NCBI GenBank assembly: GCA_000310025.1 | Contig: FN648563.1 | Location: 36,581 to 100,580, forward strand | Origin: Ectocarpus siliculosus | Lineage: Eukaryota > Sar > Phaeophyceae > Ectocarpales > Ectocarpaceae | Direction: 5' to 3' | DNA length: 64,000 bases | Part shown: positions 10,569 through 55,364 of the stretch, one piece after another | How positions within the stretch are numbered: the stretch's first letter is position 1 | Layout of the letters: the number at the start of each line of letters is the position of its first letter | Notes under the pieces: model-generated | The model's input: the letters and a program-made list of their open reading frames with translations, nothing else | Told to the model about the DNA's origin: nothing | Databases searched by the model: none | Translations under genes and position numbers: made by a program

Positions 10569-11571
10569 ATGCTTACGTGACGGGATCAATTTGGATTTTT
10601 TTCTTTTTTTCCCCACAACTGGCTCTCTGCGGTCAAAGATCTTCCAAGCGTGCGTGTGCACCCATAAATCACGGCGGCAAGGATGGTGCAGCAGTGGGTC
10701 CATGTGTGGGGCTCACAGGGATGGGGACGCGGTATATGTAAGGGTGACGAACAGGAGTAGTAGTACTAAGCAGTATTTTCTGAGCAGGTGTGCATGCCTG
10801 TCTCCGACAGCAACCGTCCGCACAGAGGATGTACCTGTGCAAGCAATACCTGTTGGCACACGTTCTCCACCTCATCCTTGGACAGAGCATACGGCAAGCG
10901 CATACGTGCGAAGACGCTTACGGGAAATCACCTCACAGAAGCGCCAGATCGACGAAATAAACGGCCCGCTCATCAGAGAATCGAGACCATCATCAACTAT
11001 CGCACAAAATGCATAAAAAACGTGATAAATTTTACTTTCCTCTACTACAAATAGAGAGCTGTGATCGGAGCTGTAGTCCCGAAAACCTTTGCCTTCGAGC
11101 GAAATGTTGCACACAGCAGACGAACCATCCTTCACTCCCAATACTGGGAACCACACACACCGCGATCACAACAACAAGCACCGAGGCAATACGTTAGCAT
11201 CGGCTCCGGTGTGCGCTTTCTCTATTCTCCCCCGCGAATGCTGCACCGGATTGATCACATGTTCCAGGGTACTGAGTGTACCCTCCGGTGGTATTTAGCG
11301 TTCGTATCATACAGTCCCGGTAGGCAGTAGATTGGATCTGGAAAGGATATCTGCCCCACGTCAGAGAGATTGGGCATGGGTGGATAGTATTGTACTCTGT
11401 GAGTCCTGTGCGCATTGCTGATAAGCGTGATTTGGGGGTGGGCTGCCTGTGTCTCGGTACTGGTCTCTATGTATTTTTTTTGCTCTTAGCCGAGGCACAA
11501 CGGCGATCTTTCGGCACGCAAAGTTATCGTAGCTGAGAACGGAGCTGAATCGGCCTGTAGTCACGTAAGGG
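10569..11571. mobile_element. Non-autonomous piggyBac-like element, copy 1 (degenerate ends)
   Basis: About 1 kb with strong similarity to 15820-16868. Shared blocks are CCCACAACTGGCTCTCTGCGG near the left end and GGAGCTGAATCGGCCTGT near the right. Inner terminal repeats CTTACGTGAC are present at both ends. The right edge reads GGGTTAC and the left ACCATGC, so the TTAA flanks and CCC start have mutated. No transposase is encoded. Confidence 0.65.
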
Positions 11572-15819: not shown

Positions 15820-16868
15820 CCCTTACGTAACTGTGTTAATTTGATTTTTTTTTTTTTCCCACAACTGGCTCTCTGCGGTCAAAGATCTTCCAAGCATGCG
15901 TGTACACCCGTAAATCACGGCGGCAAGGATGGTGCAGCAGTGAGCCCATGTGGGGGCTCACAGGGATGCGGACGCGGTGTATGTAAGGGTGACGAACACG
16001 AGTACAGTAGTACTACTGTTGTACAACAGTAGCAGCTATGCGTAGAGAAATATACTGCTGTACAGCAGCAGTAGTTTTTGAGCAGGTGTGCATGCCTGTC
16101 TCCGACAGCAACCATCCGCACAGAGGATGCAAGATGTACCTGTTGACACATCTTCTCCACCTCATCCTTGGACAGAGCATACGGCAAGGGCAATTCTAGC
16201 GGCGCTAGATGCGAAGACGCTGGCGGGAAACCGCCTCACAGAAGCGCCAGATCGACAAAGAAACGGCCCGCTCGTCAGAGAATCGAGACCATCATCCACT
16301 ATCGCACAAAATGCATAAAAATCGTGATAAAATTTAAATATTTCCTACTACAAATAGAGAGCTGTGATCGGAGCTGTAGTCCCAAAAACCCTTGCCCTTG
16401 AGCGAAATTTTGCACACAGCAGACGAACCACCCTCCACTCCCAATACTGGGAACCACACGCACCGCAATCACAACAACATCAAGCACCGAGGCAGTACGT
16501 TAGCATCGGCTCCGGTGTGCGCTTTCTCTGCTCTTCCACGCGGATGCGGCACCGGGTTGATCACATGTTCAGGGTGCTGTATGTACCCTCCAGTGGCGGT
16601 ATTCTGCGTTTGAATCTTGGACAGCCGGTAGGCAGTAGATTGGATCTGGAAAGGATATCTGCCCCACGTCAGAGAGATTAGGCATGGGTGAAAAGTATTG
16701 CACTGTGCGCATTGCTGATAAGCGTGCTTTGGGGGTGGGCTGCCTGTGTCTCCCTGCTGGTCTCAATGTATGTTTTTTGCTCTTAACCGAGGCACAACGG
16801 CGATCTTTCGGCACGCAAAGTGGTCGTAGCTGAGAACGGAGCTGAATCGGCCTGTGGTCACGTCAGGG
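15820..16868. mobile_element. Non-autonomous piggyBac-like element, copy 2
   Basis: Flanked on both sides by TTAA (15816-15819 and 16869-16872). It begins CCCTTACGTAAC and ends with the near-complement GTCACGTCAGGG. Exact TTAA target duplication and CCC/GGG termini are the hallmark of the piggyBac superfamily. The 1049-bp interior matches 10569-11571 and has no transposase. A perfect 20-bp palindrome (CTACTGTTGTACAACAGTAG) near 16014-16033 is absent from copy 1. Confidence 0.82.
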
Positions 16869-16872
16869 TTAA

Positions 16873-24740: not shown

Positions 24741-25853
24741 CTACCAAAGCTGGCGGTTCACGAGCTACCCCGATCTCACGACAGCAGTAACTCCCAACCG
24801 CCAAACTCAGGATCCCCCTCTCAACAGTGCTAGGGACCGTATATCCGTCTTTGCTGGGTGGTCTTTCGAGGTCTAGATCCACTTGCGGAACCTCGGCCTA
24901 CCCCAGGGACGGGGGGGGCAGGCCGGGGAGGAGACATGGCGTGTACCAGTTGGAAGATTGGTCAGTTTCGGGACTCCTACGTTCGCAGTCATAGCCCCCC
25001 GGCTAAATAGTATTGACTGGGAGAGAGATATGTAGTTATTCCTTACAGCCAAAATCGGCTCATTAGACAACAAGCGTTCCGTGCGTGTCTCTCCCCAACA
25101 CGTGGCCTACAAACCGAATAAATGATGCAGCAATTCGAAAGAAAACAACAATAAATTGCAGGTTGGCCGTAGTATCGTCAATATTTAACTTGTTTTTAAG
25201 TAGGAAGCACCTTAGTCGCGTTATTAATAGGTTGACAGAGGGGCGTTGAAAGCCAGTCAAACCATGGGCACTTCGCCGCGTGTCGGGATTGGGGGAAACT
25301 TGTCGCGCGGTATTGCCGTGAAGACTCGACCATACGCCAAAGAGCAGGGATGGTGGAAGTTGTAAGCATGGGAGGGAGAGAACGAACTGGCGCGAATGCT
25401 GGTACATTTTCACGAAGCATTTGCGAGGGAACTTCACTGCGGGTGGATTAGTGGTGGGGGTCGTGGGCGTGGAGAAATCGTTAGTTGCCAGAACAAAAGG
25501 TTTTCGGCGAGGGGGAACGTCAAGGCAAAAGTCGCGCTCAAGGTACATACGCGCTTCACAAAGGTGGCAGCAACAAAAGTAGCAGCGGAGGATCGTGTGG
25601 GGAGCAGCTGACAGCCTTTCTAGTTCTGGTAGTATTCTTTGCATCTCTTGGTTATGTCCGGGGACAACATCATCTCCATCTCGCATTCGTACACTTCGTC
25701 TCTAGCTTGGGCACTAGTTGGTGTGTTCTCTATTAGGGTATGCTCACGCCTATGTGTGGGGCTTAAAGCGAAGCCTGTACTCGGGCAGGCGGGACCCCTT
25801 GTACTCACTAGTAATGTTCTTGAGTACGCGCGTGGCAGTTCCCCTCGACAGAC
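24741..25853. other. Flank between LINE and LTR element
   Basis: Contains a minus-strand copy of the boundary motif at 25128-25165 (GCAATTCGAAAGAAAACAAC) but no satellite unit. The long minus-strand frame 25686-25063 runs through that repeat, so I do not call it a gene. Confidence 0.4.
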
Positions 25854-26275
25854 TGTCACGGTAGCATGAACGGGCGCTAAATACTGAGAATCATTCCATT
25901 TCACGATGGTTTGAGGAGGGCCAGGGTGTACCCCAGGGTGTACCTGAATCATTGGCGGAGCCCCTCTAGAGCTCCGCCTCAACACGTGTTTTGGGTGATC
26001 GCTCACTGTTAACACGGCCAATCTCGGAAGAGGAACTTTGACCCACATCGCTAAGCAGCAACCAGTTGTGAGTCAATGCAGGAGATAGACCCCCCTTGCT
26101 AGTCCCTCCTTGATTAGTCCCCCCTTGACTTAAATGGTAAGAGACCATGAACCTGACCATGAAATGGATGAACCTGACCATGAAATGGAAGAAACTAACT
26201 GAACCCTAGCCAGTGCTTGTTAGGCTAACACATGAGTGAGCTACCTTAAGCAATAGCGTTATAACCACTGTGACA
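25854..26275 (+). repeat. Element 1 left LTR
   Basis: 422 bp, TGTCAC to GTGACA. It contains a hairpin (GGCGGAGC 25954-25961 with GCTCCGCC 25971-25978) and a tandem 21-bp repeat (GAACCTGACCATGAAATGG twice, about 26150-26190). Confidence 0.97.
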
Positions 26276-26293
26276 TGGTGAAGGCGTAGAGAT
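26276..26293 (+). promoter_or_regulatory. Candidate primer-binding site
   Basis: Begins TGGTGAAGGCG directly after LTR1. TGG pairs with the tRNA 3' CCA end. The tRNA was not identified. Confidence 0.5.
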
Positions 26294-27956
26294 TACTTTA
26301 GTTTCGTTTACACGCAGGGGCGTTTGCTGTTGGTTCATAGTACTTTCCTCACCAAAACGCCGCATATTGAGCTTCGGACACAAAGTCTTTCCAGCCCATC
26401 GTACCATGCACACATGCGCTTCACCTTGTACAACCAGAAGAGGCTTTCATCTATCCATATGGCTGAGGGTTCCTGGAGGCAGTTTTCTCGGTAACCATGC
26501 TGTGTACCAGTCGGCTATCATCACATCCTGATTGATGCTCTATCACAGCGGTTCGTAGATTTCGTGCAAAAACAAATTCGAAAAAACAATTCGAAAAAAC
26601 ATTTTGTTTTACCCCGACCTTTCCGCTGTCTCCGCATATCGAGCATGTACAGGTTATCAACCTACTGCTACTGTGGTATGTCATGGGTAGTGATACGTCT
26701 CCCTATCTCCTTGTTGGTTTGAGTGTGGTCCAAACCAATTTATAGTGTCCTGGTTTTGATGCACGAGACGTTGTAATGTGAGAGTGTTGGAAAGGTTGTG
26801 CTGGTGTTCATAAATTCTCCGCACACACACGTATGTATGCTGCAATGATCCGCTGTACCCCTCTCTCTGAAATCGTCATGCAGCAGCCGTTTCACTCGCC
26901 CTGGCCGCAGCTGATGTACAGCTGCAGCAGCAGTCTTTCAAGTGCCTCACCCACAATTACAGAAATCTTTGGTATGTGACTGTGATTCGCTTGGAGAGCT
27001 ATGCTACATCTGGCAGATATGGCCATGCTGCTGATGAGTACTCTCCTCAATCATGCAAAAACAACATTGACGCGACGCTGTTATCGTTCAACCATACATG
27101 GGGAATCATATGCTGACACACACCGTCTGGAAATGGATCGATCATAATAATAGTGGAATGCTAAATAATTATGTAGGTTAATTTCCATGGTGCTTGTTGT
27201 TTGTAAAGTATATGGTATAGGAAGAGCGGAAAATATACTTGTGTAGCGATAAAGGTACCTAATGTACTGACGCGCTACAATAAAAATTAACAGTTGTATC
27301 TTTCTACCACTCGACGGCTGTCTGTCGCATATCTTCCCCATGCATCGGAGTCCATTAACCGTGTCGCATCGACAACAGGCACGTCGTCGTCAGTTCAGGC
27401 TGCTGCGGCTCATCGTTGTTTTTTTTTTTTTCGCATATACTAGGCATCCATCGGAAGACATGTATTTCATGAAATCTATGGAAAATATTACGCTAATGTC
27501 CGAACAGGGGATGGACCGATCGTGATTACAGCACCTTAAGTGTGTTGTGTAGCATATTCTAAACAGGTCGACTGCTACTACTGCATAATAGAGTGAAAGA
27601 GCTAAAAAGTCGACTGTCATTGACCAGGGGGACGATAAAAAGTAGAATATTGCTGCTGTGTCATTACACTGGGTGCTGCACTACGATCTTCTATGACTTG
27701 TCTCGACCACCAGTGGCATAATTTTCCACAAACGCGGTATCTTCAACCGTGTCTTCTGTTACTATCCGTGGTCCTTGGGAACGTATTCTGCGGATGTCCG
27801 AACAAGGGATGGATCGATGGTGATGACAGCACATTAGTGTGTTGTGTAGCGCAGTATAAAACGTCGACTACTGCATAATAGAGTGAGTAGTGAGAGCTAC
27901 AAGTCGACTGTTATTATCCAGGACGACATTAACCAGTATACCTAAATAGTACTACT
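26294..27956 (+). other. Element 1 leader with internal duplication
   Basis: No gag or pol similarity. An imperfect direct duplication, offset 298 bp, links 27497-27725 and 27795-28018 (TGTCCGAACA, GTGTGTTGTGTAGC, TGCATAATAGAGTGA, ACACTGGGTGCTGCACTACG). A T13 run is at about 27419. Confidence 0.6.
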
Positions 27957-28622
27957 ATGTCGTTACACTGGGTGCTGCACTACGATCTTCCATTACTTGC
28001 CTCGGCAATGGGTGGCATATTCTCATCACCACACCTGTGTCGTTACCATACTTCCCTGCCGATCCATTATTTCTGTGTCCGGTGCAAACACATGGATTCC
28101 ATCACCGAAACCTCGTACACCCGAACCATGACGACCGTAGAAGGCACGGTCGTTCGCAAGCATTATGACGGAAACCCGCAGCAAGACACAACGACCTTTA
28201 CCGTCACTTTCAACCACCTTCCACTGCAGCCGAAGATGCTTGCACCTTCTGATGGGGAGGGGAACACAGCGACCACGGATGATGATGATGAAGATAGAAG
28301 GATTTTTTTGACTGCTCTTAAAGGAGGGCGGAAATGCTTTGCTACTCGTGCGACAGACATTGCTATTGACGGTCCCGTAGCTTCCACGAGGTCACGCAAA
28401 TATGAGTATAACGACCCAGGGACAGGCAGCCTCGGAAGAAACAAAGGACTCGGTCGGTGTCGTGGGCTTCACATGCCTATCAAGTATACTTCGACGAGAG
28501 GGATGCCGCCCGTGTGGTTGGGGATGCTCTGCGGGGCTGGTGAAAGGAGCACCTATGAACAGCACGGTGTCCTAGTAAGCAGTAAGCCTGTCTTCAGCGT
28601 GGACGTCAAAGAAGAAAAATGA
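27957..28622 (+). CDS. Uncharacterised ORF in the element 1 leader
   Basis: 221 codons, ATG start, uninterrupted, upstream of gag on the same strand. It has a Cys pair (FCVRCKH, about residues 39-45), an acidic run (DDDDED, about 109-114) and a basic middle. Its first about 20 codons fall in the duplicated leader segment. I recognise no family. It could be an accessory protein of the element or a chance frame, but it is the longest intact leader frame while gag is broken. Confidence 0.4.
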   Translation: MSLHWVLHYDLPLLASAMGGIFSSPHLCRYHTSLPIHYFCVRCKHMDSITETSYTRTMTTVEGTVVRKHYDGNPQQDTTTFTVTFNHLPLQPKMLAPSDGEGNTATTDDDDEDRRIFLTALKGGRKCFATRATDIAIDGPVASTRSRKYEYNDPGTGSLGRNKGLGRCRGLHMPIKYTSTRGMPPVWLGMLCGAGERSTYEQHGVLVSSKPVFSVDVKEEK

Positions 28623-29057
28623 GACACGTTGGACTGGACTGTGTGGGAATGTTGTATAGTGTCCACAATGTTTGAGGGATGTGGTTTATATAGTTTTTGA
28701 GGATGCCGTGCTTATCACACTCATGAACGCCAACGTATCATAAACATCAACCGCCTATGGCATATTGCTGGTATGTATTTGAGGAATTTCTTGGAATAAC
28801 GTACGTCCTGGAAGGATCATCGGAGCACGATGTTGGCCGATACATGTTGTAGGATGGTTGTTCATGCCTCGGTCATGTTGTTGGTTACAACGGTCTTTAT
28901 CATGCCAGAGAATGCATAATGAATCATACCAAGCACCTTGGTTCTGCGATGGATATATATGACCTTGAGGGGATTTCCTTCACGCTTTAGGTTCTCTGTG
29001 ATATCACAAGGCACACGTACATGTCGGCACCGACCTTGTACCCGGTTTTAATGCTAG

Positions 29058-30121
29058 TGGTCATCACATGGTCATCTCCACCAGCAGGGAGGGCCGCCCC
29101 TTCCACTGCCGGGAGGGCCGCGCCCTTCGCCGCCTGGTGGACCGCCTCCTCAGCAACTTCAACAGCAGGGAGGGCCACCCCTTCCACTGCCGGGAGGGCC
29201 GCCCCCCCCGCCGCCTGGAGGACCGCCCCCTCAGCAACTTCAACAGCAGGGAGGGCCGCCCCTTCCACTGCCGGGAGGGCCGCCCCCCCCGCCGCCTGGA
29301 GGACCGCCTCCTCAGCAACTTCAACAGCAGGGAGGACAGCTTCCTCTACCGCCTGGAGGACCGCCTCCTCAGCAATCTCAACAACGGGGAGGACCGCCCC
29401 CTCCGTCGGCTGGAGGACCGCCTCCTCAGCCGCCTGGGGGACACTGCCTCAACAACCCCAACAGCAGGAAGGACTGCCTCCTTTGCCGTAGGGAGGACCG
29501 CCTCCTCCACCGGGAGGACCTCCGCCTTCGGAACTCCAACAGCAAGGAGGGCAGTTTCCTCAGAATGGTGGAGGACAAACACCTCAACATCTTCATCAGC
29601 CAGGAGAGCCACTTCTGCCGACACCTCCGCAACAGGGAGGACCATCCCCTCATCAGGGCGGATTTCCAGCACACTACCCACAGGCGGGAGGACCTCTTCA
29701 GCACCAAGGAGGATTCCACCATTCACGGGGCGTTCCTCATCAGCTGGCACCATCCCACGGACAGTTTTCGTCCCATGCGAACGTTGACGGAGGACGTCCC
29801 CACATGCCCTATAGCGGGGGAGGTTTCCCGTCGCCGGGAGGGTTTCATCAACAACCTCAGCCATTCCCCAACCGCGGAGTGGGGGGACAGCCGCATTCTG
29901 GAGGTCCAGGTCATGGCTTCTCGCCTCACGGATACGGATACAACGGAGGATACTATGGACCGTCACCCTTCTCCTCGGTGTATGCGGTCAACATGGCGGA
30001 CCCTAAACAGTGTCGCCAAGTGTGGGAAGGTATCAAGAAACGTATCGTCCAAGGTACGGGAGAAGGAGGTTTTGAAGGACCCCCGTTGCAGATCAACACG
30101 AAGGACACACGCTCGACATGA
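29058..30121 (+). pseudogene. gag: Gag-like Pro/Gln/Gly-rich protein, frameshifted
   Basis: From 29058 one frame reads HQQGGPPLPLPGGPRPSPPG and repeats a unit of about 30 residues (PPPQQLQQQGGPP) three times. The repeat units are about 87-90 bp. At the G-run near 29440 the frame changes, continues in the second frame with QQPQQQEGLPPLP, meets a TAG at 29489-29491 and remains Gln/Pro/Gly-rich to 30121. Its end (YAVNMADPKQCRQVWEGIKK) is no longer low-complexity. Low-complexity gag regions of this sort precede the capsid part in some Ty3 elements. No zinc knuckle was seen. Plus-strand frames rich in Arg or Ser/Ala here are shadows. Confidence 0.55.
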
Positions 30122-30378
30122 TCCGCTGGTCTTCCAAAACGTCGTCACAAAGGAGTACGCCATGGAGTCCGGTGCGGTAGCGAAGTTTCCGCCTGATCGC
30201 ATGGCTATTCATCCAGCTTCGGGACATCAGGTGGTTCATCCCGAGCCCGATGATTTCACTCCGGCGCGAGGGAAATTCTCCTTGGGTTGCTGCCACAGGA
30301 AATGGCAGTCGTCACAGAGTACCAGGCATCGCGGGGCCAAGAAATGCTAGTCCATGATGTGAGGGGTGGAAAACGGAG

Positions 30379-31160
30379 GTGACGGCACTGGATCTCCTGA
30401 GGCTCATGACAGAAGAAGAAGCACGGAAACATGCTACACGTCGTGCAGCCATCGTAGCATTCAACTGTATAGTGTTGGGACTCAAGGAGTCGTGGTTGGC
30501 GCGCAAGTGCGAATGGTGCAGTATTTCCGAGCCTCACAACCTTGACCCGGAGCCCCCGTACGCCACAGAAAAACGTTACTTCTGGCAACTACTCTCTATG
30601 CGTGATCTTCAGATCTTGGAGGAGAAAGCGTTGCAGTTGTGCTTTCCTCAATGGGGAGACAGGATGCCACGCGAGGCTCAATTGCTCACGATCAGAGAAC
30701 GCTACCGACAGCAGCTCGACAACATGCCAACCATCCGACATGAGCTGGGCCCGCCTCACATGGCCAGGAGGGGAGCACTCCCTTGATTGATGAGATTTTC
30801 GGTGTGAGCGTGAGAGTCGTGGAGGGACTTCCTGCGTTCATGCGTCAATACAACAGCACACTAGACTTTGGAGGCTCGGGGTCTGGGTGGTTTCGACCAT
30901 CACCCACATCTGATCGAACACCACTGCTGCCATACATGGAGCCTTCGAGAGTGAAAGCTAAGACACTACGTGGACTACACAGGAGACCAAAAGAGGAGAA
31001 CGAACCAACTCGAGCGTTCTACACGGTGGAAGATGAAGCAGAGGAAGACGTTCAACAATCACCGCCGTTTGAAGTGCTGGCAATGGAGGCTCTGGAATTA
31101 GAGTCAACAGCGTGGGAGGATGATGGAACGTTGACATGGCCCATCGATGTTGACCAAGAA
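30379..31160 (+). pseudogene. Gag/pre-pol segment
   Basis: 30379-30786 (136 codons) reads as a charged helical protein (LLRLMTEEEARKHATRRAA; a CEWC pair). The next frame, from about 30783, continues without a gap (EIFGVSVRVVEGLPAFMRQY). I see no clear aspartic-protease Asp-Ser/Thr-Gly motif. Position between gag and RT suggests a capsid/protease remainder with part deleted before 31160. Confidence 0.45.
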
Positions 31161-31560
31161 ATCAACGTACCTGGCAGCGCATATCATCAACTGGAACTTG
31201 AGGAGACGGACAAACATAAGACGGCCTTTCGGGACCCCACGGGACGTCTACTCGAGTCAAATCGAGGCGCCTTTGGTATCACCACAATCCCCGCCGTCTT
31301 CTCAGCCACGTTGGGTGATGATCTGCGAGAGTTATTGAGCAAGAGCTTGGAAGGAAAAATGGTTGGATGACATCGCACTCCACACAAAGACGTTGGAAGA
31401 ACACTTCGTACTGCTGGAGAAGGTCCTCACTATCCTGAAACGAAAAGGGTACACAGGTCACTTCGGGAAAAGAGAATTTCTATTGCCAGAGCTCGAGTTC
31501 TTAGGGGTCATGGTCGGAAGGGATGGAACTCGACCAGCACCATCGAAGCTTGATCGCGGC
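31160..31560 (+). pseudogene. pol: Ty3/gypsy reverse transcriptase remnant
   Basis: Starts abruptly at GSAYHQLELEETDKHKTAFR, the mid-palm of Ty3 RT. It continues with FGITTIPAVFSATLGDDLR and, after a one-base frameshift at about 31365, LDDIALHTKTLEEHFVLLEK (the YxDD box, here xLDD), then ELEFLGVMVGRDGTRPAPSK. The RT N-terminal fingers are missing and the thumb end is cut after 31555. It cannot work as it stands. Confidence 0.88.
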
Positions 31561-31561
31561 A

Positions 31562-31793
31562 GGGTCAGTTCTGACACAGCAGGTGGAGAACAGAGAGGCT
31601 CCGGTCGGATACGCCATTAAGACGTTGTCCAGGTCAGAGAAAAAACTGTCGTCAAACGATCGGGAGGTTCTGGGAGTGTTGTATGCACTATAATAGACCA
31701 TTCCAAGTTTTACCTTCAGCACCGTCAGTTCACTCTCATCACGGACTGTGCGCCCTGATGTGGCTCTTCACTAGCCACAACCTATTGTAAAAG
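31562..31793 (+). pseudogene. pol: RNase H remnant
   Basis: GSVLTQQVENREAPVGYAIK, then DREVLGVLYAL and two stops. The next frame reads FYLQHRQFTLITDC. Another frame shift leads to the LMWLFTSHNLL step just before a stop at 31788-31790. At least three frame changes occur within 230 bp. The order matches Ty3-type RNase H. Confidence 0.8.
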
Positions 31794-33020
31794 ATGCACC
31801 AGTGGGCGCTAAAGATGATGGCGTATGATATGGTCCTGAAGTGGAGAAGGGGAACAGACCATGTCGTTCCAGACGCTCTCTTTAGACTCCAGCGGAAAGG
31901 CTCTGGCGAACCCGATGTCGACACCACATTACCGGGTGATGGAGATGGCGAAGTAAGGGGGAACGGGCCGGCAGGACCAGTGTTGGAAGGGGTTCCTCTC
32001 CAAAGGATGGCACAATCACAACTTGCGGAAGAAGAGGAGAGAAGTGACTCACAACCGGAGTTAGTCATGCTCAACAAGGAAGACATCAAACTCGATGGAA
32101 TCTGCTTAGCTGACCTGGGGCCAACAGAGGTCGATGACAGAAAAGTGGAGAATCTCAGTGTGTTCTACGCATTGCAGATCACACCTGATGCGTTGACACC
32201 GAGGGACGAGGAGTACGTAGCGGCGTATCAACAAGCACAAGGTCTCTTTACACTAAGACAGCCGAGGCCGGCTGTTCTCGGTCGAGGGGCAGGTGGAGCA
32301 TTACAAGCCGTTGAGGGTATGCTGGACGCAACATGTGTGATTGACTCTGATTGGAAGACCATGGAATGCATCACAGTCAACGGAGGAGCCGGTGATACGA
32401 CATTGCTTCGTCAGCCTTTAGAGTCCGACACACGCCACACAATCCTCGAGTATAAACCCGAAATCCTCATTGGCAATGCGTGCGCCGTTGAGGATGGTCC
32501 AGACGAAGGAGCGAGGACAGGGCGATTTGCAGACAACATTGTGCAGATTTTCGTGTCGTCCCCCATCCAGATCCTTGTAATGGAGAGTCCAGTAGGCTTT
32601 GCAGGGTCAGAGAGATGGAAGAATATCCTTCACCCAGAACTGCACCTGGCAGGCTGTGAAACGGCGGCAGCGTCTCTGTCAGCGACAGCAGTCGGGATAC
32701 CCACAACAAAACGGAGAGTGTTTGTGGTAGCAGTCAACAAGAGCGGGGATCCCAATTTGACAGCTAAACTATCTCAGTGGAAGAAGAATGTGGAGAGAAC
32801 TGCACTGTCGACACCCACGGTCGATGGCTTTTTGAGAAGACAGGGATGCTTCTTCTTGAAACGAGTACATCAGAACAAGGAGATATTCTCGTTTGAGGAG
32901 CCGGTGGTGACGGATACAAGGGAACACATCATGGGCCGTAAACCCCTATCGACAGCTTTTACGGCACACCCCAACGACGCAGGGTCGTTGCAGGAAGCGC
33001 AACAGCTATCGTGGGAAGAT
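31794..33020 (+). CDS. RNase H tail plus cytosine-C5 DNA methyltransferase-like domain
   Basis: 409 open codons. Residues 1-32 are the RNase H end (HQWALKMMAYDMVLKWRRG; HVVPDALFRL). An acidic linker follows (about 33-155). Then come steps in the order of C5 cytosine methyltransferases: VLGRGAGG at 161-168 (motif I), VIDSDW at 182-187 (motif II), KPEILIGNACAVEDG from 221 with C230 where motif IV has Pro-Cys (here Ala-Cys, one residue shorter), MESPVGF at 263-269 with E264 (motif VI, usually Glu-Asn-Val), and GIPTTKRRVFVVA at 301-313 (motif VIII, usually Gln-x-Arg-x-Arg-Val). SLQEAQQLSWED near the end fits the region before motif X. A TAG at 33021-33023 cuts the frame, but the same frame reads on. 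Such enzymes methylate C5 of cytosine. Activity is doubtful because motif IV is altered. No close alternative family suggested itself. Confidence 0.68.
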
Positions 33021-33023
33021 TAG

Positions 33024-33430
33024 GTGAAACTAACCACCAACCGGGACAACTACGAGGTACCACCAACTCTGGGAAGATGTGATATAGCTCGAGTGATGCA
33101 AGAGCACACATTAGCGCCAATGCTGAGAGAAGTTCTGAATCTCCTACGACTGAAAGGAAGGCCGAAGCGTCTAATGGACGGTACAAAGACCGGGGAGACA
33201 GATCACAACAAACAAGTAGACGAAGATCTGCTCATCGACTTGGCCAGCTTGTATCAGGAAGATGCGGCGGTGGCGGTGGTGACTAGGGGAGTTACCGTCG
33301 ACCGTCACGTCGACCGCACACGTTTTAAGGTGACCCCGGCGGAGACTCGGAGTGCGGCTCGACGAGCTCGACAGCCGACACTCACTCCATCCACCATAGC
33401 GAAGCCAACGACCTCTTCAGAGAAGGAGAC
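33024..33430 (+). pseudogene. Methyltransferase C-terminal part and linker to integrase
   Basis: In the same frame as 31794-33020 after a single TAG. It starts VKLTTNRDNYEVPPTLGRCD, then IARVMQEHTLAPMLREVL, which fits the motif X region (Val-Pro-Pro, then a helix) of C5 methyltransferases. A charged linker then runs towards integrase. Near 33400-33430 the coding frame changes. The rest of this frame, to 33614, is not conserved in character. Confidence 0.55.
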
Positions 33431-33433
33431 CGG

Positions 33434-33928
33434 GTGCAACAACCAGAGAGACGATCAGTGTCGACAGAGAGCTCTTCTACAACACCATCGAGGTCCGACC
33501 CAGAAACATCGCAACCACGGTTGGAACGGCCAGACAACGACATTCCCCTCTGTCGACGGCATTCCGCACAGTTGGAACAAATGGAGCGTGTCTTGCGCGA
33601 CGGTGCCCAACTAAAAAGGATCCAACAGGAAGACTTGAGGTTGACACCCATCCGGGACAATATGGAGAACGGCGAAGGAGAGCAAGCTGATTACATCCTG
33701 GACGATCAAGGTCTACTTTGGTTTGCGCCGAGAGGGGCGGCACATGTTGTAGCCCTACCTCACAAGCTGGTGTCTGCAGTACTGGCCCTGGCACATGGCA
33801 CCTTTGGACATTCGGGGATAGCTCGCACCACTATCATTGTGGCGGACAAGTACCACTGGCCATCGCTGAAGAAAGATGTGCGAGACTACGTGTTATCATG
33901 TCGATGCCGTATGAGAAAACGACAGTGA
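33434..33928 (+). pseudogene. pol: Integrase zinc-binding (HHCC) part
   Basis: After a linker rich in Ser/Arg, residues 60-165 read as the Ty3 integrase N-terminus: ALPHKLVSAVLALAH, HGTFGHSG (His-x4-His), ADKYHWPSLKKDVRDYVLSC and a CxC pair ending MRKRQ. It meets a stop at 33926-33928, where the usual loop to the catalytic core should follow. Confidence 0.82.
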
Positions 33929-33961
33929 AGAAAACAAATTCACATTTTACCGGCACGATTC

Positions 33962-34544
33962 TTGCGTCCATGGGAAGTCTTGGAGATGACTTGCCATGAA
34001 GTTGACATCCAACAACGACAACAGGTACTTGCTGGTGATAATGGATCGAGCAACCAAGTTCCTCTTCGCTTACCCGCTTCCCACGAAGGAAACTTTGGGA
34101 GTCAGCAAGAAATTGTTGGAGCTCATCCTCACCTTCGGACTACCCATATCGGTTCGCTGTGATCCGGGGGCAGAAAACACCTCGGCGATCATGGAACACC
34201 TGTGCCGGTGGCTCAAAATATCCCTCGACTTTGGACCGACCAACCATCCCAGAGGAAAGGGAACAGTCGAGAGGATGGGAGCGGTGCTGCAAGAGATGCT
34301 GTCGGAGCTCTGCCAGGCATGGCCGAACAGGTGGGATGAGTATGTGGCAGTGGTCGCTTGGGCCCATCGTACGACGCCGGATGAGAGCCTTCCAAACAAA
34401 GAGTCAGCATACCACCTGCTCTTTGGACGGGCGCCAAGGACATCATTTGATCACATGTCGCCATCACTAGACAACTCGGGCCCAGCATTGCCGCTGGAAA
34501 GGACGGTGAAGGAAACGAGAAGGAAGACTGTGGAAGTAATGTAA
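33962..34544 (+). pseudogene. pol: Integrase catalytic core
   Basis: 33962-34010 gives RPWEVLEMTCHEVDIQ, the region of the first catalytic Asp, broken by a frameshift at about 33990. From 33996 the core is open: NDNRYLLVIMDRATKFLFAY, then VRCDPGAENTS with the second Asp and GKGTVERMGAVLQEML with the Glu. The Asp usual before HEV is not readable in this copy. The stop at 34542-34544 is in frame with the next part. Confidence 0.85.
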
Positions 34545-34904
34545 GTGCTAAAAGTGAGACAGAAAAATCGGAATAGACACCACAAACTCCAGAACGCGAG
34601 GATCAAACGTGCATCACCAGGCACCAAGGCCAAGGTGGGCGACAAGGTATTCGTCAAGGAGAGCGCCAGTACACTCTACAGGGATGGTGTCCACCCTAAA
34701 CTTGCCCATGACCACTTCACAGGACCGTTTCAAGTCGTGCACGTCGTGCGAGAGGGGTTGAGCTTCACTGTAGGACTGCATGGACGTCAAATCCGCCAGA
34801 GGACGGTGGCAGCCACGGACTTCAAGCCGTTTCATTCTCGACCACAAGACATCAGACATCCATTTGAAGATGAGTTTGGTCATTTGTATGGTCGCCGGAT
34901 TTAG
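34545..34904 (+). pseudogene. pol: Integrase C-terminal domain
   Basis: In the same frame as the core after one TAA. GTKAKVGDKVFVKES and HFTGPFQVVHVVREGLSFTV form the GPF/Y-type module of Ty3 integrases that follows the core. It is open for 120 codons. Confidence 0.78.
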
Positions 34905-35124
34905 GATTAGCTGAAGACTCCGTCGTCGCGGCACCTCTGTATACTTTGGTGAATAGACCGGTGGTCCAAGGTGCTGGAGGAATAGCGTCCGCATGGGCAT
35001 GGGAGTATAGGGGGAAGTACTAGGATGGAACCACTCTCCGTGGATCACCGAAGACACTGCCAGGGACAGTTTCTCGCCTCTGCAACTTGATGTTTTTCAT
35101 GCCCTGTGGGAAGACTTTCACGGG

Positions 35125-35421
35125 GTGAATATCGCACCACGACCCCCGGGACCGCCGTCACGAGGAGAACGCGAAGTAGCAACGCGGACCGAAGCTCTCG
35201 CGGAATTTCCCTGTGGAACCATGGTTGGACGGGAGCTCATGGAGCTCATGGATCAAGAGAACAATACTGTGCTCAGCAGAGGGAAGGTCTGCGATTTCTA
35301 TGATCCGTATTGGAGAGTGGAGTTCAGCGACGGAGATTGGGAAGAGCTCAATCGCAGGGAGCTAAGGCGTGGAATGGATCTTGCCACCAGACTCCCACCG
35401 CTGACCGCTCAAGAATCGTGA
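35125..35421 (+). pseudogene. Tudor-like tail of pol
   Basis: 98 open codons. After a Pro/Arg-rich start come VGRELMELMDQE, SRGKVCDFYDPYWRVEFSDG and DWEELNRRELRRG. The pattern of a beta-strand, Asp-Pro-Tyr-Trp-x-Val-x-Phe, Asp-Gly-Asp-Trp-Glu-Glu resembles Tudor/Agenet-type readers. By analogy with the chromodomains that end some Ty3 integrases it could steer insertion to marked chromatin; that role is inference. It is separated from the integrase part by about 220 bp in other frames. Element 2 ends with the same WEELSRREL. Confidence 0.55.
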
Positions 35422-35937
35422 AATCGTACACTGCCTGCCATCTTCCGTCCTCCATGCGGGAAGCTGGGGGGTGTGTGACGGCAGTGTCATGAATGAGGAG
35501 TTCCAAGATCGTCTTCTACAGCGGAAGATCGTCCTGAACAGTCGGTGATCGTCGGTCAAGATGCAAGATCGTCGTCATAGTCGTCGGTCTGTGGAGACTG
35601 TTGGTGGGAAAACGTCTTCAACAGTGGAATATCACCTTCTTCAGTGGACGATCGCCTTCTTCAGTTCAAGATCGTCATCGTCAAGGAGTCCGGTATACGG
35701 CGACCAAAGTACTAACGCCCGTCATTCGGGGTCGATGATTTCAGCAATGTAACATCGACGTCGAACACACCGGCATCAGTCCTCTCGAGGTTAAAATCCA
35801 TTTTTTGTGGTTTAACCTGGGGAGGGCGGCATCCTCCCTTTTCAGATCTATATTCCCGGCGTGGTTTGATCTGAGGAGGGAGAAGCGCACGTTCTGCTAC
35901 CTCCTTAGCATTTTGTGTTTTTCAACACATGTATGCT
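35422..35937 (+). other. Element 1 3' noncoding region
   Basis: Contains repeated short GATCGTC blocks (CAAGATCGTC, AGATCGTCGT, CGATCGCC; about 35507-35680) spaced about 20-25 bp. No gene. Confidence 0.6.
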
Positions 35938-35944
35938 GGGGGGG
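35938..35944 (+). promoter_or_regulatory. Polypurine tract
   Basis: Seven G directly before LTR2. Plus-strand priming site by position. Confidence 0.75.
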
Positions 35945-36366
35945 TGTCACGGTAGCATGAACGGGCGCTAAATACTGAGAATCATTCCATTTCACGATGG
36001 TTTGAGGAGGGCTAGGGTATACCCCAGGGTGTACCTGAATCATTGGCGGAGCCCCTCTAGAGCTCCGCCTCAACACGTGTTTTGGGTGATCGCTCACTGT
36101 TAACACGGCCAATCTCGGAAGAGGAACTTTGACCCACATCGCTAAGCAGCAACCAGTTGTGAGTCAATGCAGGAGATAGTCCCCCCTTGCTAGTCCCTCC
36201 TTGATTAGTCCCCCCTTGACTTAAATGGTAAGAGACCATGAACCTGACCATGAAATGGATGAACCTGACCATGAAATGGAAGAAACTAATTGAACCCTAG
36301 CCAGTGCTTGTTACGCTAACACATGAGTGAGCTACCTTAAGCAATAGCGTTATAACCACTGTGACA
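35945..36366 (+). repeat. Element 1 right LTR
   Basis: 422 bp, 417 matches to the left LTR by eye. Followed by AGAC, the target duplication. Confidence 0.97.
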
Positions 36367-36774
36367 AGACACAATTGGGGCGGGCGGCCACGCCGGGATG
36401 GATGACGGTGAGGGTTTGGGGGGAAGTTAGGAATAAGAAGAAGGAAGACGACACCTTAGAAGTAGCAAGAAGGGACGGTCCATGGAGACGCAAAGAAGAC
36501 AGACATGAAGACGTGAAGACGCTCGCGAAGAGCGAGAGGGCACAGGAGGGTGAAGGATCACCCCCCGCGCCCCCAGTGGGTGAGGGAGACGTTGGGTTGG
36601 TCGTCTGCGAGAACGGACGGCGTGTGCTGCGCGACTACGGTCGATGCTGTCCATCATTTAGCATGTAGTACAATAGTTCGGGACCACCTCTCGACAATTC
36701 CATTTCGTGGGCAGACTAACACAGATAGCGCCATTTTCTTGCGAAGCATTTTCTTTTTTGGATTGTCGCATCCT

Positions 36775-41389: not shown

Positions 41390-42068
41390 GTGTTTTTTTT
41401 TGGAACAGTCGCTGGTTGGCTGGGCGCCCCCTTAGATACCCCGTGGGCTTCATGCGCGGACGACCAGACGTACACCGAGACAGATCTGCCTCTTTTTGGT
41501 GGAAGATTCAAAATTCTCGGAACTATATTCTCGGAACGAATGTTCGGATCAAGGCAGACCATGCCACCAAAGCCTGCGGAACGGAGGGGAGATAAACCAC
41601 TAGACACAACAATGGTGACGAGACAGGAGGCTGCAGCAATGGAACGCAGCATGGAGAGGTCGGAGCATTCCACTGACGACAAGTTTATCGAGCATGAGAG
41701 ACGCGGACGTTCGACGTCTGAATCGTACGTCAGCACGCGCGCGTGAAGTAGTCGTCAGCGAGGAAGTAGAAATCTCGGGGTGCTCTCGAGGCCAGACACC
41801 GTCATGGACTTGGCGTACGCGCCTCAGAACCGCGCACCAAGAGGGTGATTTTCGGAAGCACTCTGTCGAAGATGGGATTTAGCGATCTATGCGAGTTATA
41901 AGAACACACTTCGCTTTTGTCGTTTCTCAAGGGACTCGTGAACATCAGCGACGTGGCCTTCGTGCTGCAAAGCAGCTCCTGGAAATTCCGCATGGCGAGC
42001 TGGATGAAGGACAGCAAGGGCGACGGAGGGTATGACTTCGAGCTCATTTCCATCGGACGGAGAATATC
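41390..42068 (+). other. Coding-like sequence interrupted by element 2
   Basis: 41390-41746 is a 118-codon frame with a charged C-terminal half (MPPKPAERRGDKPLD; EAAAMERSMERSEHS). 41937-42068 reads NISDVAFVLQSSSWKFRMAS, then YDFELISIGRRI up to the LTR. Composition looks coding, but I recognise neither. It could be gag of an older element or a host exon. Element 2 inserted at its right end. Confidence 0.35.
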
Positions 42069-42540
42069 TGTTACGGTTACATAGTTTACGGTACAGGGAG
42101 TTGCACCCTTCGGGATTAGCGTTGTTCCCATAGCGTGGTGTTGACAGTTCTGTACAATAATTGCGGAACCCCTTTTGTCTCGGGCTTCGTGCTGCCGCAC
42201 GAAGCCCACTTACTTACTTGCTTACTTCCTGTCGGCATCCAGTGCTCAGCAATAATCAAAGTGCATACCGTATCCACGACGGGAGACCTTCTCCACGCTC
42301 CACAAGCCTACATCTAGGCTTTCTCTACCGCTGTTCAAGCGCACATCTTCGAACTCGGTACTGATCGAGAGGCTGCTACCATCAGGTCGGCAGCTTTTGG
42401 TAATCATTCCGGAAAGCGTGACTTCCTTCCTATACACACAACCCTGGACTTGTGGCCATGAATGGCCACAAGCACATGCCTAGATAGACCCACTCAAGTC
42501 ACGAGATCCATCCCAAATCAGAGCCTCTCTTTCCGTCACA
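42069..42540 (+). repeat. Element 2 left LTR
   Basis: Contains two perfect hairpins: GGGCTTCGTGC/GCACGAAGCCC (42182-42192 with 42197-42207) and CTTGTGGCCA/TGGCCACAAG (42449-42458 with 42463-42472). Both are conserved in the right LTR. Confidence 0.97.
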
Positions 42541-42558
42541 TGGTGTCCGATCCGAGCA
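42541..42558 (+). promoter_or_regulatory. Candidate primer-binding site
   Basis: TGGTGTCCGATCCGAGCA directly after the LTR. The length and TGG start suit pairing with a tRNA 3' end; the tRNA was not identified. Confidence 0.6.
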
Positions 42559-45500
42559 CTGTAGTACATGTGCTGTTGTGGTACTGTTGTTGTGTAGACG
42601 TGAGGTACGTGCAGTAGCTCACGCTCACGCTGGGAAATGCGGCGAAATTTTTGTTTCTGCCGCGACCCTGGATGCATGTTGTTTTGTCGCACTTTCCATC
42701 TCAGCGGCTCGTGCTTCGAGCCGAACTGTTCATCGCGAAGGCACACACACCTGGAAGCCTACATGCTCTTGGGCGTCTGTCCCTTTGCTTGCAGCCTGTT
42801 GTGGCCCTAGTTTCCTTGCTTGCTATAGCGTGTTGTGGGTACAGGTTACCTAGAAATACTGCTGCAGGAAACCCTGTGGCTCACACTTTTTCACTGCCGT
42901 GGGGAGAAGGAGGACCCTGTGGCTCACACTTCTTTACTGCCGTGGGAAGAAGGAAGACCTGGCCGCACACGCTGACGACGGAGGCTGGCTGTTTCCTGAT
43001 GGGCGAGTTGCATGCAAGCTTGAGCCACACACACCGTGTTGACCCCTGTTGCCGTCTTTCCCTTTCGGCGGCCGATAATGATGATGTTTATGAGAAATTG
43101 ATTGGATAAGTCCGAGCTTGAGTTGCAGATCCAGGCCTTGCGGAAACCGGTGTGTGTGTGTCTCGCTTTCGCAACCTCTTCCTGGACTTGGAATACATGC
43201 GTCTGGTCTTAGCTGCTGGATGCAAGTCCACGTCCAAGACCCAGGCCCAAGCGTCGCTAACATTTACGCGCAAATTCTTGCTACCACGTACGTACCACGC
43301 CCACCGATGGGCGCTGGACCCCAATTTTCCATTTCCTCGGCTGCTTTCGAGCGTTTGCTCACCTACCTGCTGTCATATATTATGCGCTATGCTACATATT
43401 ATGCATCGTCGCTTCATTCCGTCACCGGATCATTATTTGGCGTTTCGTCATTCGACCATGGTTCGGCTATGATTTTCTATTACTTTTGTTTTTTTTTGCC
43501 GCCTGCCTACAGTACACTTTTTTTTATTACATTCACGCTGCCCTTTTGCGTTTTATCCTCATAGCCATCTGCTTGATCTGCTCACTTATTGTATTCTAGT
43601 GCAATTTTTGTTTTACCCTTCACCCAATTTTCGTTTTTTCATCAGCAGCCTTAACCTGCTGGCCCTTACTCCCCTGGCTGGCTTCTTGTCTGTCGCACGT
43701 GCGCACGCCCATCCATCTGAATGCATGTGCGTGTGAACTGCCTACTGCATGTAGTTCTATCTGCTGTATATCATATTTGCTGACGGTGACCAGCATGTGA
43801 GCACGTTCCGCTGCATGCATCGATTTCGCATCACTGGGGACGCTGGTTCCCAGGATGCTACCGTTTGTTTCTAACTCGACCCCAGATGATTGCTTGCTCC
43901 GCACGGGAAGGCCATGGGTGGGATGTACGCGAACACACACACTGCTCGATTCCCCGTTCTCGACCGTTGCCGCCTAAATCGAGAGCGTGATAGCATGGCG
44001 AGAATTGGTGTGGAACCAGCAGTTGCGTTCTGTGTCGCAGTCCCCCAGGCCGGGAGGTTGCGCCCCTTCTGCTCTCTCGTGCACTGCTTATTTTATGTTG
44101 CCTGCCCTTTTGCTTCTCGTTTGCCGCGCGTTGCTTGTTGCTTGCTTACTCGCTCCTCGTCTGCCGTGGGTTTTGCGTTGCCTGCTTTTCGCTCGTTTTG
44201 CTGTGCGCTTCGCACGTACATGGATTGCCTCCTTCATTATTATTATTATTATTTATTTTTACATGCTCGTTTTTTGCGACGTTCTTTTCTTTATCCTTCT
44301 GTTTCCTGTTTGGGGACATTTCTTTTTTTCCAATAATCATTCCCATTTCTGAGTGTTCATGCTGACGTTGTCTCATAATCCTTTGTTTGCAACCACGCGG
44401 CTTGCACACTGGTGCATGTTCAGGCGTGCAACCCCATGCCTAACTCTCAGCTAACTAACCCTAACATGTGCTGGTATTTTGATTTCTTTTTTCAAGGCTC
44501 ACATGCTTTCCTCATGCGATGCGTGGGTCATCACGCATGGCATAAATTCCGTGCACGGTTGCTATCAGCTCACTCGTCTCCCGACCAGATTTTTTTTCGG
44601 CGGTGTGGTTGGCGGGTTGAGGGAACATGTGCAGCGGCTGACCCGGGTGACTACACCCATGGCCGCCCCCCCGGAGGGGGGAGGTGCCGCTGGGTGGCTC
44701 CACCGACGTCTGATATTGGTGTAGCTGCCATTCCTGGCGGCTGCATGATGTTTGGTATTAGGTGTAGCTGCCACTCCTGGCGGCTGCACCGGTGTCTGGT
44801 ATTGGTGTAGCTGCCGCTCCTAGCGGCTGCACCTGTACCACTGCTCGTCTTGTTGAGAGCGATGAAACGTGTGTAGCGACCACTCTGGTTGCTGCACGTA
44901 ATACATGCGATACGTTTTCCCCGAAAAGTGCTCATGCATGCTGTCACGTAGGGGTGAGGTTGAGTTTTGCTCTTGGCAACACACGCTGCGCTGCCGGTAG
45001 AAACCGCTTTCGATGCCGAGATAGGACGTCGAAGAGAGCACCCTCGCACCTTTGGAAACGACCGCGGATGGATGCTTTGACTTCAGCAAGGAGGGATGTC
45101 GCGCGGCCGTCATAACACAGCTCCCCAGGGACCGCGGGATATTGCTTTCTGCAAGGGGGGAGACGCCGCGGTCACCGGAGCACGGCTGCCTGAAAGCAGG
45201 GCGGAATACCCAGGCAGGATTGGAGGCCATCGGAATGTCGTCGGCACGTCTCCCAGAACAACAGCAACGAGGCGACGCGCACAGGGGGCAGGTTTTCACA
45301 AGAGTCGTGACAGCAGTTGAAGGCTTGGGGGGACGTAAAGAGGCAAGACGTTGAGTACGCTAATGCGAACAAAGGGAACGAGTTGCCAGCCACCGCAGAG
45401 TCCCTGTTAGCCGACATAGTCGTGCTGCCCCACACACGTACGACCACGCAGGGATGGAATTGACCTGGTCTTTGATATTCTACAGTTGTCACTGGCGCAC

Positions 45501-45680
45501 CTTGGCGATATGCATTGGCAGTTTGTGGTGGCCATGTTGCACTACGGATGTCGAAAGAATAAGAGATCGTTACCCTTTCTCCTAACACAACCCCCTTCGA
45601 GTACGGGTAGTTTGCACGTCCCTTGCACGTCCATAAAGGCTCTTTGTGGCGCCGCGCGTTGAGACATCGCCAGCGTCGTA
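42559..45680 (+). other. Element 2 noncoding interior
   Basis: No gag or RT recognised. It holds a 40-bp duplication at about 42866-42950 (GGCTCACACTTTTTCACTGCC and GGCTCACACTTCTTTACTGCC), C/T-rich stretches at 43480-43560 and 44080-44340, and an ATT microsatellite at 44236-44253. Confidence 0.55.
44708..44835 (+). repeat. Minisatellite, three units of about 46 bp
   Basis: Unit pattern GGTATTGGTGTAGCTGCCAC, TCCTGGCGGCTGCACC, repeated about three times with small changes. Confidence 0.85.
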
Positions 45681-46384
45681 GAGCACGTTGTGCCCGACGC
45701 GCGCTCGCGGCTCCCGGTTGCAGGGCCCGCTGAGGAGAACGTCGATGAATCTTTTCGGGACGATTTGTCGCCCGCGGTAGAGGACGCGTCAGTCGAGGCT
45801 CTGGGCCCAGAGTTGAACGGTGTGAGATTGGCCGATCTAGACCCTGCACAGGCAGACCTAAAGGAGAATGCGGTAGCTCACGTCCCTTCCCCACCCTTGG
45901 TCCATGGGGCCGTTAACGCTAACCCCTCCGCCCTTGGAGCGCTGCCCTTTGCGATGAGCGTTCGATGCCGAGTCCCAGGGACTACGCCGTAGCGGCAGGA
46001 CTCGCACGCCATCCGTACGCCTGCGGCCCATCGGCGACGTGCAGTTGCCCCCGGTGGGAGCGACGGGGCTTCTCCAGGACGAGCAGGAGGCTGGACCCAC
46101 ACCTGTCGAAGCCGTGCCACCCGCACCCCCGCTTCCAGGGCTACCGCCCTCGCCCGTCCATCGAAGCCGCGACGACATCGGTGAAGTGCTCGCGGCACGG
46201 GGGGAGGTACCGAGGTCGTCGTCGGGACCAGATGTTCGTGGGACGTCAGCCGTTGACCAGGCGGCGCAGGTTCTCACCAAGCCATCCATCCTCGCACAAC
46301 GGCAACGGGACGACACCCTTTTGGGCCAGTGACCAGAACTGGGAGGAACTCTCCCGTCGAGAGCTTGAGCGGCTTTCGAGATAA
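45681..46384 (+). pseudogene. pol: Pol remnant: RNase H end fused to the pol tail
   Basis: 45681-45992 reads EHVVPDARSRLPVAGPAEEN, then LNGVRLADLDPAQADLKENA. This parallels the RNase H end and linker of element 1 (DHVVPDALFRL; LDGICLADLGPTEVDDRKVE). In the next frames a Pro-rich segment (46100-46160) and SDQNWEELSRRELERLSR, stop at 46384, correspond to the Tudor-like tail of element 1 (SDGDWEELNRRELRRG). Methyltransferase and integrase, which lie between these parts in element 1, are missing. At least two frame changes occur. The segment shows common descent of the two elements. Confidence 0.72.
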
Positions 46385-47341
46385 CGGCTGCATTACGGCA
46401 TGCACAAATCCGAGGCGTCGCTGTGCGTGCATGATGTTGGATCAGGGCTGTGTCTGCAGGTGGCCTAACATCACCCGTACACGAATCGGCAACCCCCGGA
46501 TGTATTGGCTGAGGCGTTCGATTATTTATAATCATTGTGTAGGTAGCCTGGGACAACCGTACATGTTGGAGGTGTTTGTTTATTTTATCGTCGTTTTCTA
46601 GGTAGCTTCAAGACACACGTACATTCCTTGGGTATCGTATATGGGTTGACAGATGGTCGCGGCCGTTTGCCGGTAGTTTTACCACGCCTGCACAAGAGTC
46701 GGTACGCTTCTAACTTTAGTTAAAACGGATGGGGTATCGCTGTATAAGTCCTTAAAGTGTGTTTCGTGGAGCGTGTTTCGTGCAATAAGTGACGCGTCCG
46801 TTGGGGGTGAGATCGTTGTGTTCTGGATGTTTATTTCGTATAGGGAATAGCGTTTTCCCGTAGCTTGCGCACGTTGCTCTGCTCCGTCTGGGCGTCGTTA
46901 TTCGTGTGATCGAGTTTCGTTTTGGGTGGTATTCATAGAGTTGGATTTTCCGAGTTGTTGCAAGAGTGCTAAGTACCGTGGGGAATAGAGTACCGTACCG
47001 TACCCATTTCGGGAACGCAGCATCGTTGTGCTGTGCGTCTTGGTGTGCCGTGCGACCTAGTGTTGTAGGTGCTTGCATAGTACCCTTGCTCGGGATGGGG
47101 GCGAAGGGTTTCTCCCGGACACCGGGTTTTTCCTTCGCACAAGTCGATGTCGGGCTTGTTCAACGCGCAGTGAGAATGTCGAGACGAGCGGTTTTTATGT
47201 AGGTTTTTTCGCTGTCACCTCTCGATATTTTCGGTCGAACTTTCGGTCCAACTTATAGGCATCGCATGGTAGTTTTCAAGAGGAAGTGCGCCACTTTGCG
47301 GTGTCCGCAATTCCCGCTACCGTTTAGCATGTGACAGTGCT
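46385..47341 (+). other. Element 2 3' noncoding region
   Basis: No gene recognised. Repeated GTGTTTCGTG and CGTACA-type blocks occur without clear periodicity. Confidence 0.4.
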
Positions 47342-47348
47342 GGGGGGA
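47342..47348 (+). promoter_or_regulatory. Polypurine tract
   Basis: GGGGGGA directly before LTR2. Confidence 0.7.
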
Positions 47349-47812
47349 TGTTACGGTTACATAGTTTACGGTACAGGGAGTTGCACCCTTCGGGATTAGC
47401 GTTGTCCCCATAGGGTGGTGTTGACAGTTCTGTACAATAATTGCGGAACCCCTTTTGTCTCGGGCTTCGTGCTGCCGCACGAAGCCCACTTACTTACTTC
47501 CTGTTGGCATCCAGTGCTCAGCAATAATCAAAGTGCATATCGTATCCACGACGGGAGACCTTCTCCACGCTCCACAAGCCTACATCTAGGCTTTCTCTAC
47601 CGCTGTTCAAGCGCGCATCTTCGAACTCGGTACTGATCGAGAGGCTGCTACCATCAGGTCGGTAGCTTTTGGTAATTATTCCGGAAAGCGTGACTTCCTT
47701 CCTATACAGACAACCCTGGACTTGTGGCCATGAATGGCCACAAGCACATGCCTAGATAGACCCACTCAAGTCACGAGATCCATCCCAAATCAGAGCCTCT
47801 CTTTCCGTCACA
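47349..47812 (+). repeat. Element 2 right LTR
   Basis: 464 bp. It lacks 8 bp of an ACTT/GCTT run found in the left LTR. Followed by TATC. Confidence 0.97.
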
Positions 47813-55345: not shown

Positions 55346-55364
55346 AATTGTTGAACAACACTGA

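Follow-up and report, generated by a model that had tools for sequence, protein, structure and literature searches.

A pol domain of probable C5-methyltransferase origin, set between RNase H and integrase, in a Ty3/gypsy lineage of Ectocarpus siliculosus

The locus described here raises the question of what use a methyltransferase domain can be to a retroelement when methylation may not be the point. Within the window, i.e. the whole stretch of 64,000 nucleotides of Ectocarpus siliculosus DNA that was analyzed, a preliminary description had placed a C5-cytosine-methyltransferase-like segment with an altered motif IV between the RNase H and the integrase of a Ty3/gypsy pol, and had interpreted it as a captured gene. 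Retrotransposon capture of C5 methyltransferases is known, in the account of PMC5890265, from dinoflagellates and one charophyte, with the key residues conserved and in hosts with 5-methylcytosine (5mC). What appears to be new here is a further capture, missed by standard profile scans and selected despite its altered motif IV, in a lineage from which 5mC is reported to have disappeared (PMC13076208).

The element in the window is an LTR retrotransposon at 25854-36366, with its LTRs, coding remains and motifs on the + strand. The 5′ LTR (25854-26275), which starts with TGTCACGG and ends with GTGACA, and the 3′ LTR (35945-36366), recognized by its repeat pairing with the former, are both 422 bp long and coincide at 417 of 422 positions (5 of 422 sites differ; 98.8% identity; K2P 0.012). 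Both are flanked by the 4-bp target-site duplication AGAC (25850-25853 and 36367-36370), so that two characters required of a Ty3/gypsy element, the LTRs and the target-site duplication, are present. Upstream of pol there is a Pro/Gly-rich repetitive stretch (29067-29585; direct and tandem repeats with periods of 57 and 81) that is possibly gag-like. The pol itself is broken by frameshifts and a deletion, and its pieces were located in changing frames by tblastn, with the related unbroken frame of another genomic copy (L019, 1807 aa) as the query. They comprise the remains of reverse transcriptase in two frames (31173-31551; L019 residues 297-421, 90-95% identity; RVT_1, E 0.00061) and those of RNase H in changing frames (31547-31889; L019 pieces 518-565, 565-584 and 584 onwards). 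Downstream come a linker (31890-32255) containing GPVLEGVPL (31974-32000) and KLDGICLADLGPTE (32088-32129), the domain under study (32256-33176, about 305 aa, delimited with profile comparisons), the zinc-binding H2C2 domain of integrase (33758-33919; PF17921, E 2.9e-13), a partial integrase core (34014-34250; PF00665, E 1.9e-7, 31.7 bits vs a cut-off of 32.6) and a Tudor-like C-terminal motif (35281-35367; PF21743, E 0.00034, 20.8 bits, below the cut-off of 27.2). No counterpart of L019 residues 1-296 and 422-517 was found in the window element by tblastn, the latter being missing before the RNase H remains. The low divergence of the LTRs beside the heavy coding damage suggests that this copy was already damaged at the time of transposition. 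The near-identity of LTRs around so damaged a pol looks as if another element had mobilized the copy in trans.

Other repeats were recorded in the window: a tandem array whose units measure about 122 bp (region 55333-58945; about 26 copies at 55823-58945 and three more at 55367-55772); direct repeats at 42069-42541 and 47349-47813 (96.6% identity, about 5.3 kb apart), perhaps the LTRs of another element, with no stop-to-stop frame of at least 250 aa between them in 42000-48000; and a second pair at 10572-11574 and 15822-16871 (87-90% identity, also about 5.3 kb apart).

The motif strings quoted in the preliminary description were found in the frame 31791-33023 and, past the in-frame TAG by which the domain of the window copy is interrupted (33021-33023), in the open stretch 33024-33614; the frames of two related copies (L019 and L004) are open at the position of this stop. 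Before the TAG lie VLGRGAGG (motif I, 32274-32297), CVIDSDW (motif II, 32334-32354), EILIGNAC (motif IV, as GNAC, 32460-32483), LVMESPVGF (motif VI, 32574-32600) and AVGIPTTKRRVFVVA (motif VIII, 32688-32732), while VPPTLGRCDIARVM (33057-33098), taken at first for motif X, lies beyond it. Since the part from 31791 to about 32255 corresponds to the end of RNase H and the linker, the domain proper was set at about 32256-33176.

The genome (189 Mb, 492 contigs) was searched with the 410-aa window frame, which matched 108 pieces, its own among them. Seven others are close copies (83-93% identity over at least 325 of the 410 residues), and the more diverged ones mostly show 30-45% identity. Copies elsewhere in the genome, which the preliminary description had proposed to look for, carry the domain in unbroken frames of three deeply split families: A (L019), B (L009, 1649 aa) and C (L012, 1943 aa). 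The Pfam order in the open frame of L019, namely RVT_1, RNase H, an unassigned stretch, Integrase_H2C2 and rve, bears out the position claimed for the domain; another character required of Ty3/gypsy elements, the order of reverse transcriptase, RNase H and integrase, is present in the frames of L019, L012 and L028. In the frames of the three families, the parts flanking the domain were recognized by Pfam as RVT_1, RNase H, Integrase_H2C2 and rve, and the domain itself was assigned to no family except for a match of family C to seadornavirus VP8 (Pfam E 0.016, NCBIfam E 0.0074). This is probably a chance match, because the scanned members of A and B are without it; it covers, in L012:2495-3394, the stretch that aligns with motifs VI-VIII of the other families. 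A 2963-aa open frame around one copy was discarded as due to a run of N.

Five fetched relatives, which form families D (L028, L135 and L136) and E (L133 and L134), resemble the others in their pol but have a shorter linker and no such domain. No remnants of the domain were detected in the four D/E linkers tested (P 0.13-0.30), and the GPxLxG motif located 3′ of RNase H occurs in families A-E. An unrooted tree of reverse transcriptase-RNase H plus integrase contained two splits with a value of 100, one between A/B and C/D/E, the other between D/E and all other families. One event is enough to explain the distribution of the insert, either a gain on the branch to A/B/C or a loss before D/E. PF21743 was listed for the window, L019, L012 and L028 (14.9-20.8 bits, cut-off 27.2) and, in the Pfam scan, not for L009; the lineage in which the capture would have taken place is probably the Tudor-bearing gypsy lineage.

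Concerning the ancestry of the domain, single-sequence searches of the libraries gave no methyltransferase above the curated cut-offs. The significant PF00145 match by which the preliminary description had proposed to check the idea is absent, the window piece alone having no methyltransferase match in the Pfam scan. Sub-threshold PF00145 matches were obtained in three of nine scanned members (best E 0.033). L019 gave E 0.033 with PF00145 (14.1 bits vs a cut-off of 22) and E 0.18 with TIGR00675 (11.4 bits vs 100.65), and L018 gave E 0.33 with PF00145. Searches of the PDB by sequence and by profile found no methyltransferase: the window frame, A1 and A2 matched nothing, and the A3 profile matched four weak unrelated chains (E 0.45-0.79). 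A single-sequence structure model had a mean pLDDT of 32.7, uninformative on the fold, and tblastn with one peptide pattern as the query found no relatives in viral contigs.

Because the library scans were weak, profiles were compared with profiles. The domain profile contained 47 genomic segments, duplicates and segments below 60 bits being left out, and the C5 reference contained 65 rows, i.e. the 64 of 80 viral C5 loci that passed a length and motif filter, plus M.HhaI. The two aligned with P 1.6e-4, and motif I, GNAC with GFPC, motif VI and motif VIII were paired in order. The observed score of 38.8 was reached by none of 300 column shuffles (maximum 32.9), and the reversed profile scored 15.2. 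Taken singly, families A (P 5.3e-4) and B (P 1.0e-4; here all rows outside A and C, intermediate types included) aligned with C5 in the same register, and family C gave a weak P of 0.07; the controls, i.e. Dam and the element's own reverse transcriptase-RNase H and integrase, gave P 0.19-0.23. By parts, the motif I-IV stretch aligned with C5 motifs I-II (P 0.015) and the VI-VIII stretch with C5 motifs VI-VIII (P 2.9e-6, probability 88%). The C-terminal stretch, where the target-recognition region and motifs IX-X would lie, gave P 0.16 with the match at the wrong place, so the reading of VPPTLGRCDIARVM as motif X finds no support.

The profile was also used to rank 423 panel proteins, 154 of them from E. 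coli and 269 from viral loci; 88 carried the label C5, given by a motif pattern that overlooked at least one genuine C5 enzyme (L108, which stands among the decoys). Ranks 1-46 were filled exclusively by C5 enzymes, which form 16 clusters at 60% identity, with an AUC of 0.947, a figure to be read knowing that the panel C5 loci, having been fetched with M.HhaI, are mutually related. On the same panel the reversed profile gave an AUC of 0.567 with 10 C5 enzymes in the top 46, and E. coli Dcm ranked 154 of 423. As a candidate source, an adenine methyltransferase (Dam, P 0.23) was rejected. The host DNMT2 would be a doubtful source; of its four exon pieces only the motif VIII exon aligned clearly (P 0.0026; the others P 0.06, 0.11 and 0.39). 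Taking the profile, shuffle, family, part and panel results together, it was concluded from these alignments that the domain is homologous to C5 methyltransferases over motifs I-VIII, and the ancestry proposed beforehand holds against both shuffled and real controls. Two observations that the preliminary description had named as telling against it do occur in part, the lack of a significant family match and the existence of copies without the segment, the latter in the five related elements of D and E. They would be explained by divergence, to which the profile evidence points, and by gain or loss within the lineage.

The residues retained by the domain were counted in rows that represent copies rather than independent events. 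The alteration of motif IV noticed in the window copy proved general: Pro-Cys occurs in 0 of 28 rows. The Cys persists in 20 of the 28, from families A and B, most rows of which retain it (GNAC), the remainder being four rows with CNVEKGC or CNVGKGC (family C), one GNAY, one GNAD and two out of register. Motif I closes with GAGG or GGGG in 21 of 23 rows. Motif VI keeps its Glu in 25 of 26 rows and the full ENV triad in none of the 26. In motif VIII (GIPQxRxR), Pro and Arg are invariant in A1 (a nine-row alignment) and A2, and Gln is lost. In known C5 enzymes, the motif I glycines bind SAM, and the Glu of motif VI and the Arg of motif VIII hold the target cytosine.

The dN/dS of the insert was 0.18-0.59, below 1 in 15 of 15 comparisons, the two lowest values being based on near-saturated dS. 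It was 0.11-0.40 in reverse transcriptase-RNase H (n = 7), 0.09-0.56 in the first linker (n = 9), 0.66-0.90 in the linker behind the insert (n = 5) and 0.35-0.71 in integrase (n = 3), while the values for the L021 insert and the L016 integrase look inflated by frameshifted ends. The domain is therefore maintained by purifying selection, and the motif positions are conserved between families that share about 35-45% of it.

The suggestion that the methyltransferase could mark the cDNA or the target of the element finds little in the mutation record. The ratio of observed to expected CpG was 0.95 in the window, 0.83 in L019 and 0.91-1.01 in eight other fetched loci. In the window LTR (25854-26275), which is short, it was 0.47, vs 0.98 in the window outside the element. 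The ratio of CpG to non-CpG transitions was 1.6 in A, 1.4 in B, 1.1 in C, 1.26 in the insert-less D and 0.8 in E. Maximal trinucleotide enrichments, from few and related copies, were 1.7 (A), 1.6 (B), 1.6 (D/E) and, in C, 2.2 (ACA) and 2.1 (ACG). Hence no strong CpG footprint was found in the element copies, and no context exceeded about 2.2-fold. Dense 5mC would leave a stronger mutation footprint than this.

The gene content of the host genome, with 87 light-harvesting matches and no fewer than 150 EsV-1-7 domains (150 of 880 candidates scored), suggests a brown alga. A search of it with PF00145 (E up to 10) gave two matches, both in one spaced gene, for pieces of which the best structural matches are DNMT2 (E 5.4e-15 and 2e-7). 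No other C5-methyltransferase gene was detected by this search, which a heavily intron-split gene could escape. Brown algae have been reported to lack DNMT1, DNMT3 and DNMT5, to have DNMT2 and to have lost 5mC, and the outgroup Schizocladia ischiensis to keep DNMT1 and high 5mCG (PMC13076208); Ectocarpus in particular has been reported to be without cytosine methylation (PMC12477816). Some 5mC has been reported in the kelp Saccharina japonica (PMC6916402, PMC8472486), which disfavours a clean absence of 5mC across brown algae.

The reading that we prefer, with a probability of about 0.6, is that the domain derives from a C5 methyltransferase captured once in a Ty3/gypsy lineage and is a working part of pol, most likely an atypical or non-catalytic module binding SAM and nucleic acid. 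An ancient single capture would have placed the enzyme between RNase H and integrase, selection keeps it as a pol component in three families, and the presumed SAM-site glycines, Glu and Arg would have been retained while the nucleophile motif was lost, a combination that makes an atypical or non-catalytic module most likely. The putative binding module would act on cDNA, RNA or the integration complex rather than as a canonical maker of 5-methylcytosine. A shared function seems more likely to be binding than canonical methylation, because family C lacks the Cys and is nevertheless constrained, and because ordinary 5mC is disfavoured by what is known of the host and by the footprint. Some atypical activity may persist in families A and B, given that 20 of 28 rows have retained the Cys. 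DNMT3L of mammals, a C5-methyltransferase homologue without catalysis that is kept for another role, offers a parallel as a non-catalytic homologue, although, unlike here, it is a host gene outside retroelements.

A possible but considerably less probable explanation is that the methyltransferase of A and B is active, using Ala-Cys instead of Pro-Cys, and would methylate element cDNA, target or RNA in a host without DNA methylation of its own. It would account for the conserved Cys, for the motif VI Glu and the invariant motif VIII Arg of A1, and for the transition ratios of A and B and the low CpG values of L019 and the window LTR; however, Pro is lost in every one of the 28 rows, family C has no Cys, the other eight loci show CpG near expectation, insert-less D has a ratio of 1.26 and the context enrichments stay at or below about 2.2-fold. 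It is improbable that the domain is a passive relic of an old capture that by now does little more than separate RNase H from integrase. Families D and E manage without it, its C-terminal part has no detectable counterpart and motif IV is lost, but the insert is more constrained than the linker behind it, for which there were five comparisons, and the motif positions have persisted between distant families. That the domain has no kinship at all with C5 methyltransferases, being unrelated or another Rossmann-type domain with look-alike motifs, would fit the failure of library and PDB searches and the lack of a confident fold, but is very unlikely in view of the panel ranking, the shuffles, the in-register agreement of families and parts and the absence of similarity to Dam.

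Compared to known systems, the domain of A-C resembles KnitGypsy-Dnmt3 of Klebsormidium nitens, a gypsy LTR element with a Dnmt3 having conserved key residues, in that a C5 methyltransferase lies within the gypsy pol frame and is under purifying selection; it differs in that KnitGypsy-Dnmt3 is a recognisable Dnmt3 whose host has 5mC and DNMTs of its own (PMC5890265), while here motif IV is altered, the domain is invisible to Pfam and the host search detected DNMT2 alone. SymbioLINE-Dnmt and SymbioDIRS-Dnmt3 of Symbiodinium are likewise C5 methyltransferases encoded by retrotransposons, but of the LINE and DIRS types, with conserved key residues and in a heavily CG-methylated host (PMC5890265). 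Compared with the retrotransposon DNMTs of de Mendoza et al., which are reported with conserved key residues, the present domain also lies in a pol frame but lacks Pro-Cys in 28 of 28 rows. Among brown-algal elements, Gypsy-10_Ec32 of Ectocarpus has a C-terminal Tudor domain, as the window element has a Tudor-like motif below the cut-off, and the two are presumably related; no methyltransferase domain is mentioned for Gypsy-10_Ec32, nor for gypsy elements in general, in the relevant parts of the Ectocarpus transposon paper (PMC12477816). The accessory protein of Sola1-1_Ec32 also puts a DNA methyltransferase domain on a brown-algal transposon; unlike here, this is a DNA transposon with ParB and an N4-cytosine or N6-adenine, not C5, methyltransferase (PMC12477816). 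In the open PMC literature, subscription papers and preprints being outside the scope, no report was found of such a domain in gypsy elements of brown algae or other stramenopiles.

The domain may be a remnant of machinery that disappeared when brown algae arose. Tentatively, and as a conjecture that we consider less probable than its opposite, brown-algal retroelements could be the surviving carriers of a DNA-methyltransferase lineage in a clade from which DNA methylation has gone. In them the captured enzyme, though altered in its catalytic motif, would still recognize SAM and nucleic acid in the integration complex and would form, with the Tudor reader, a private writer-like and reader-like pair for the cDNA or the target.
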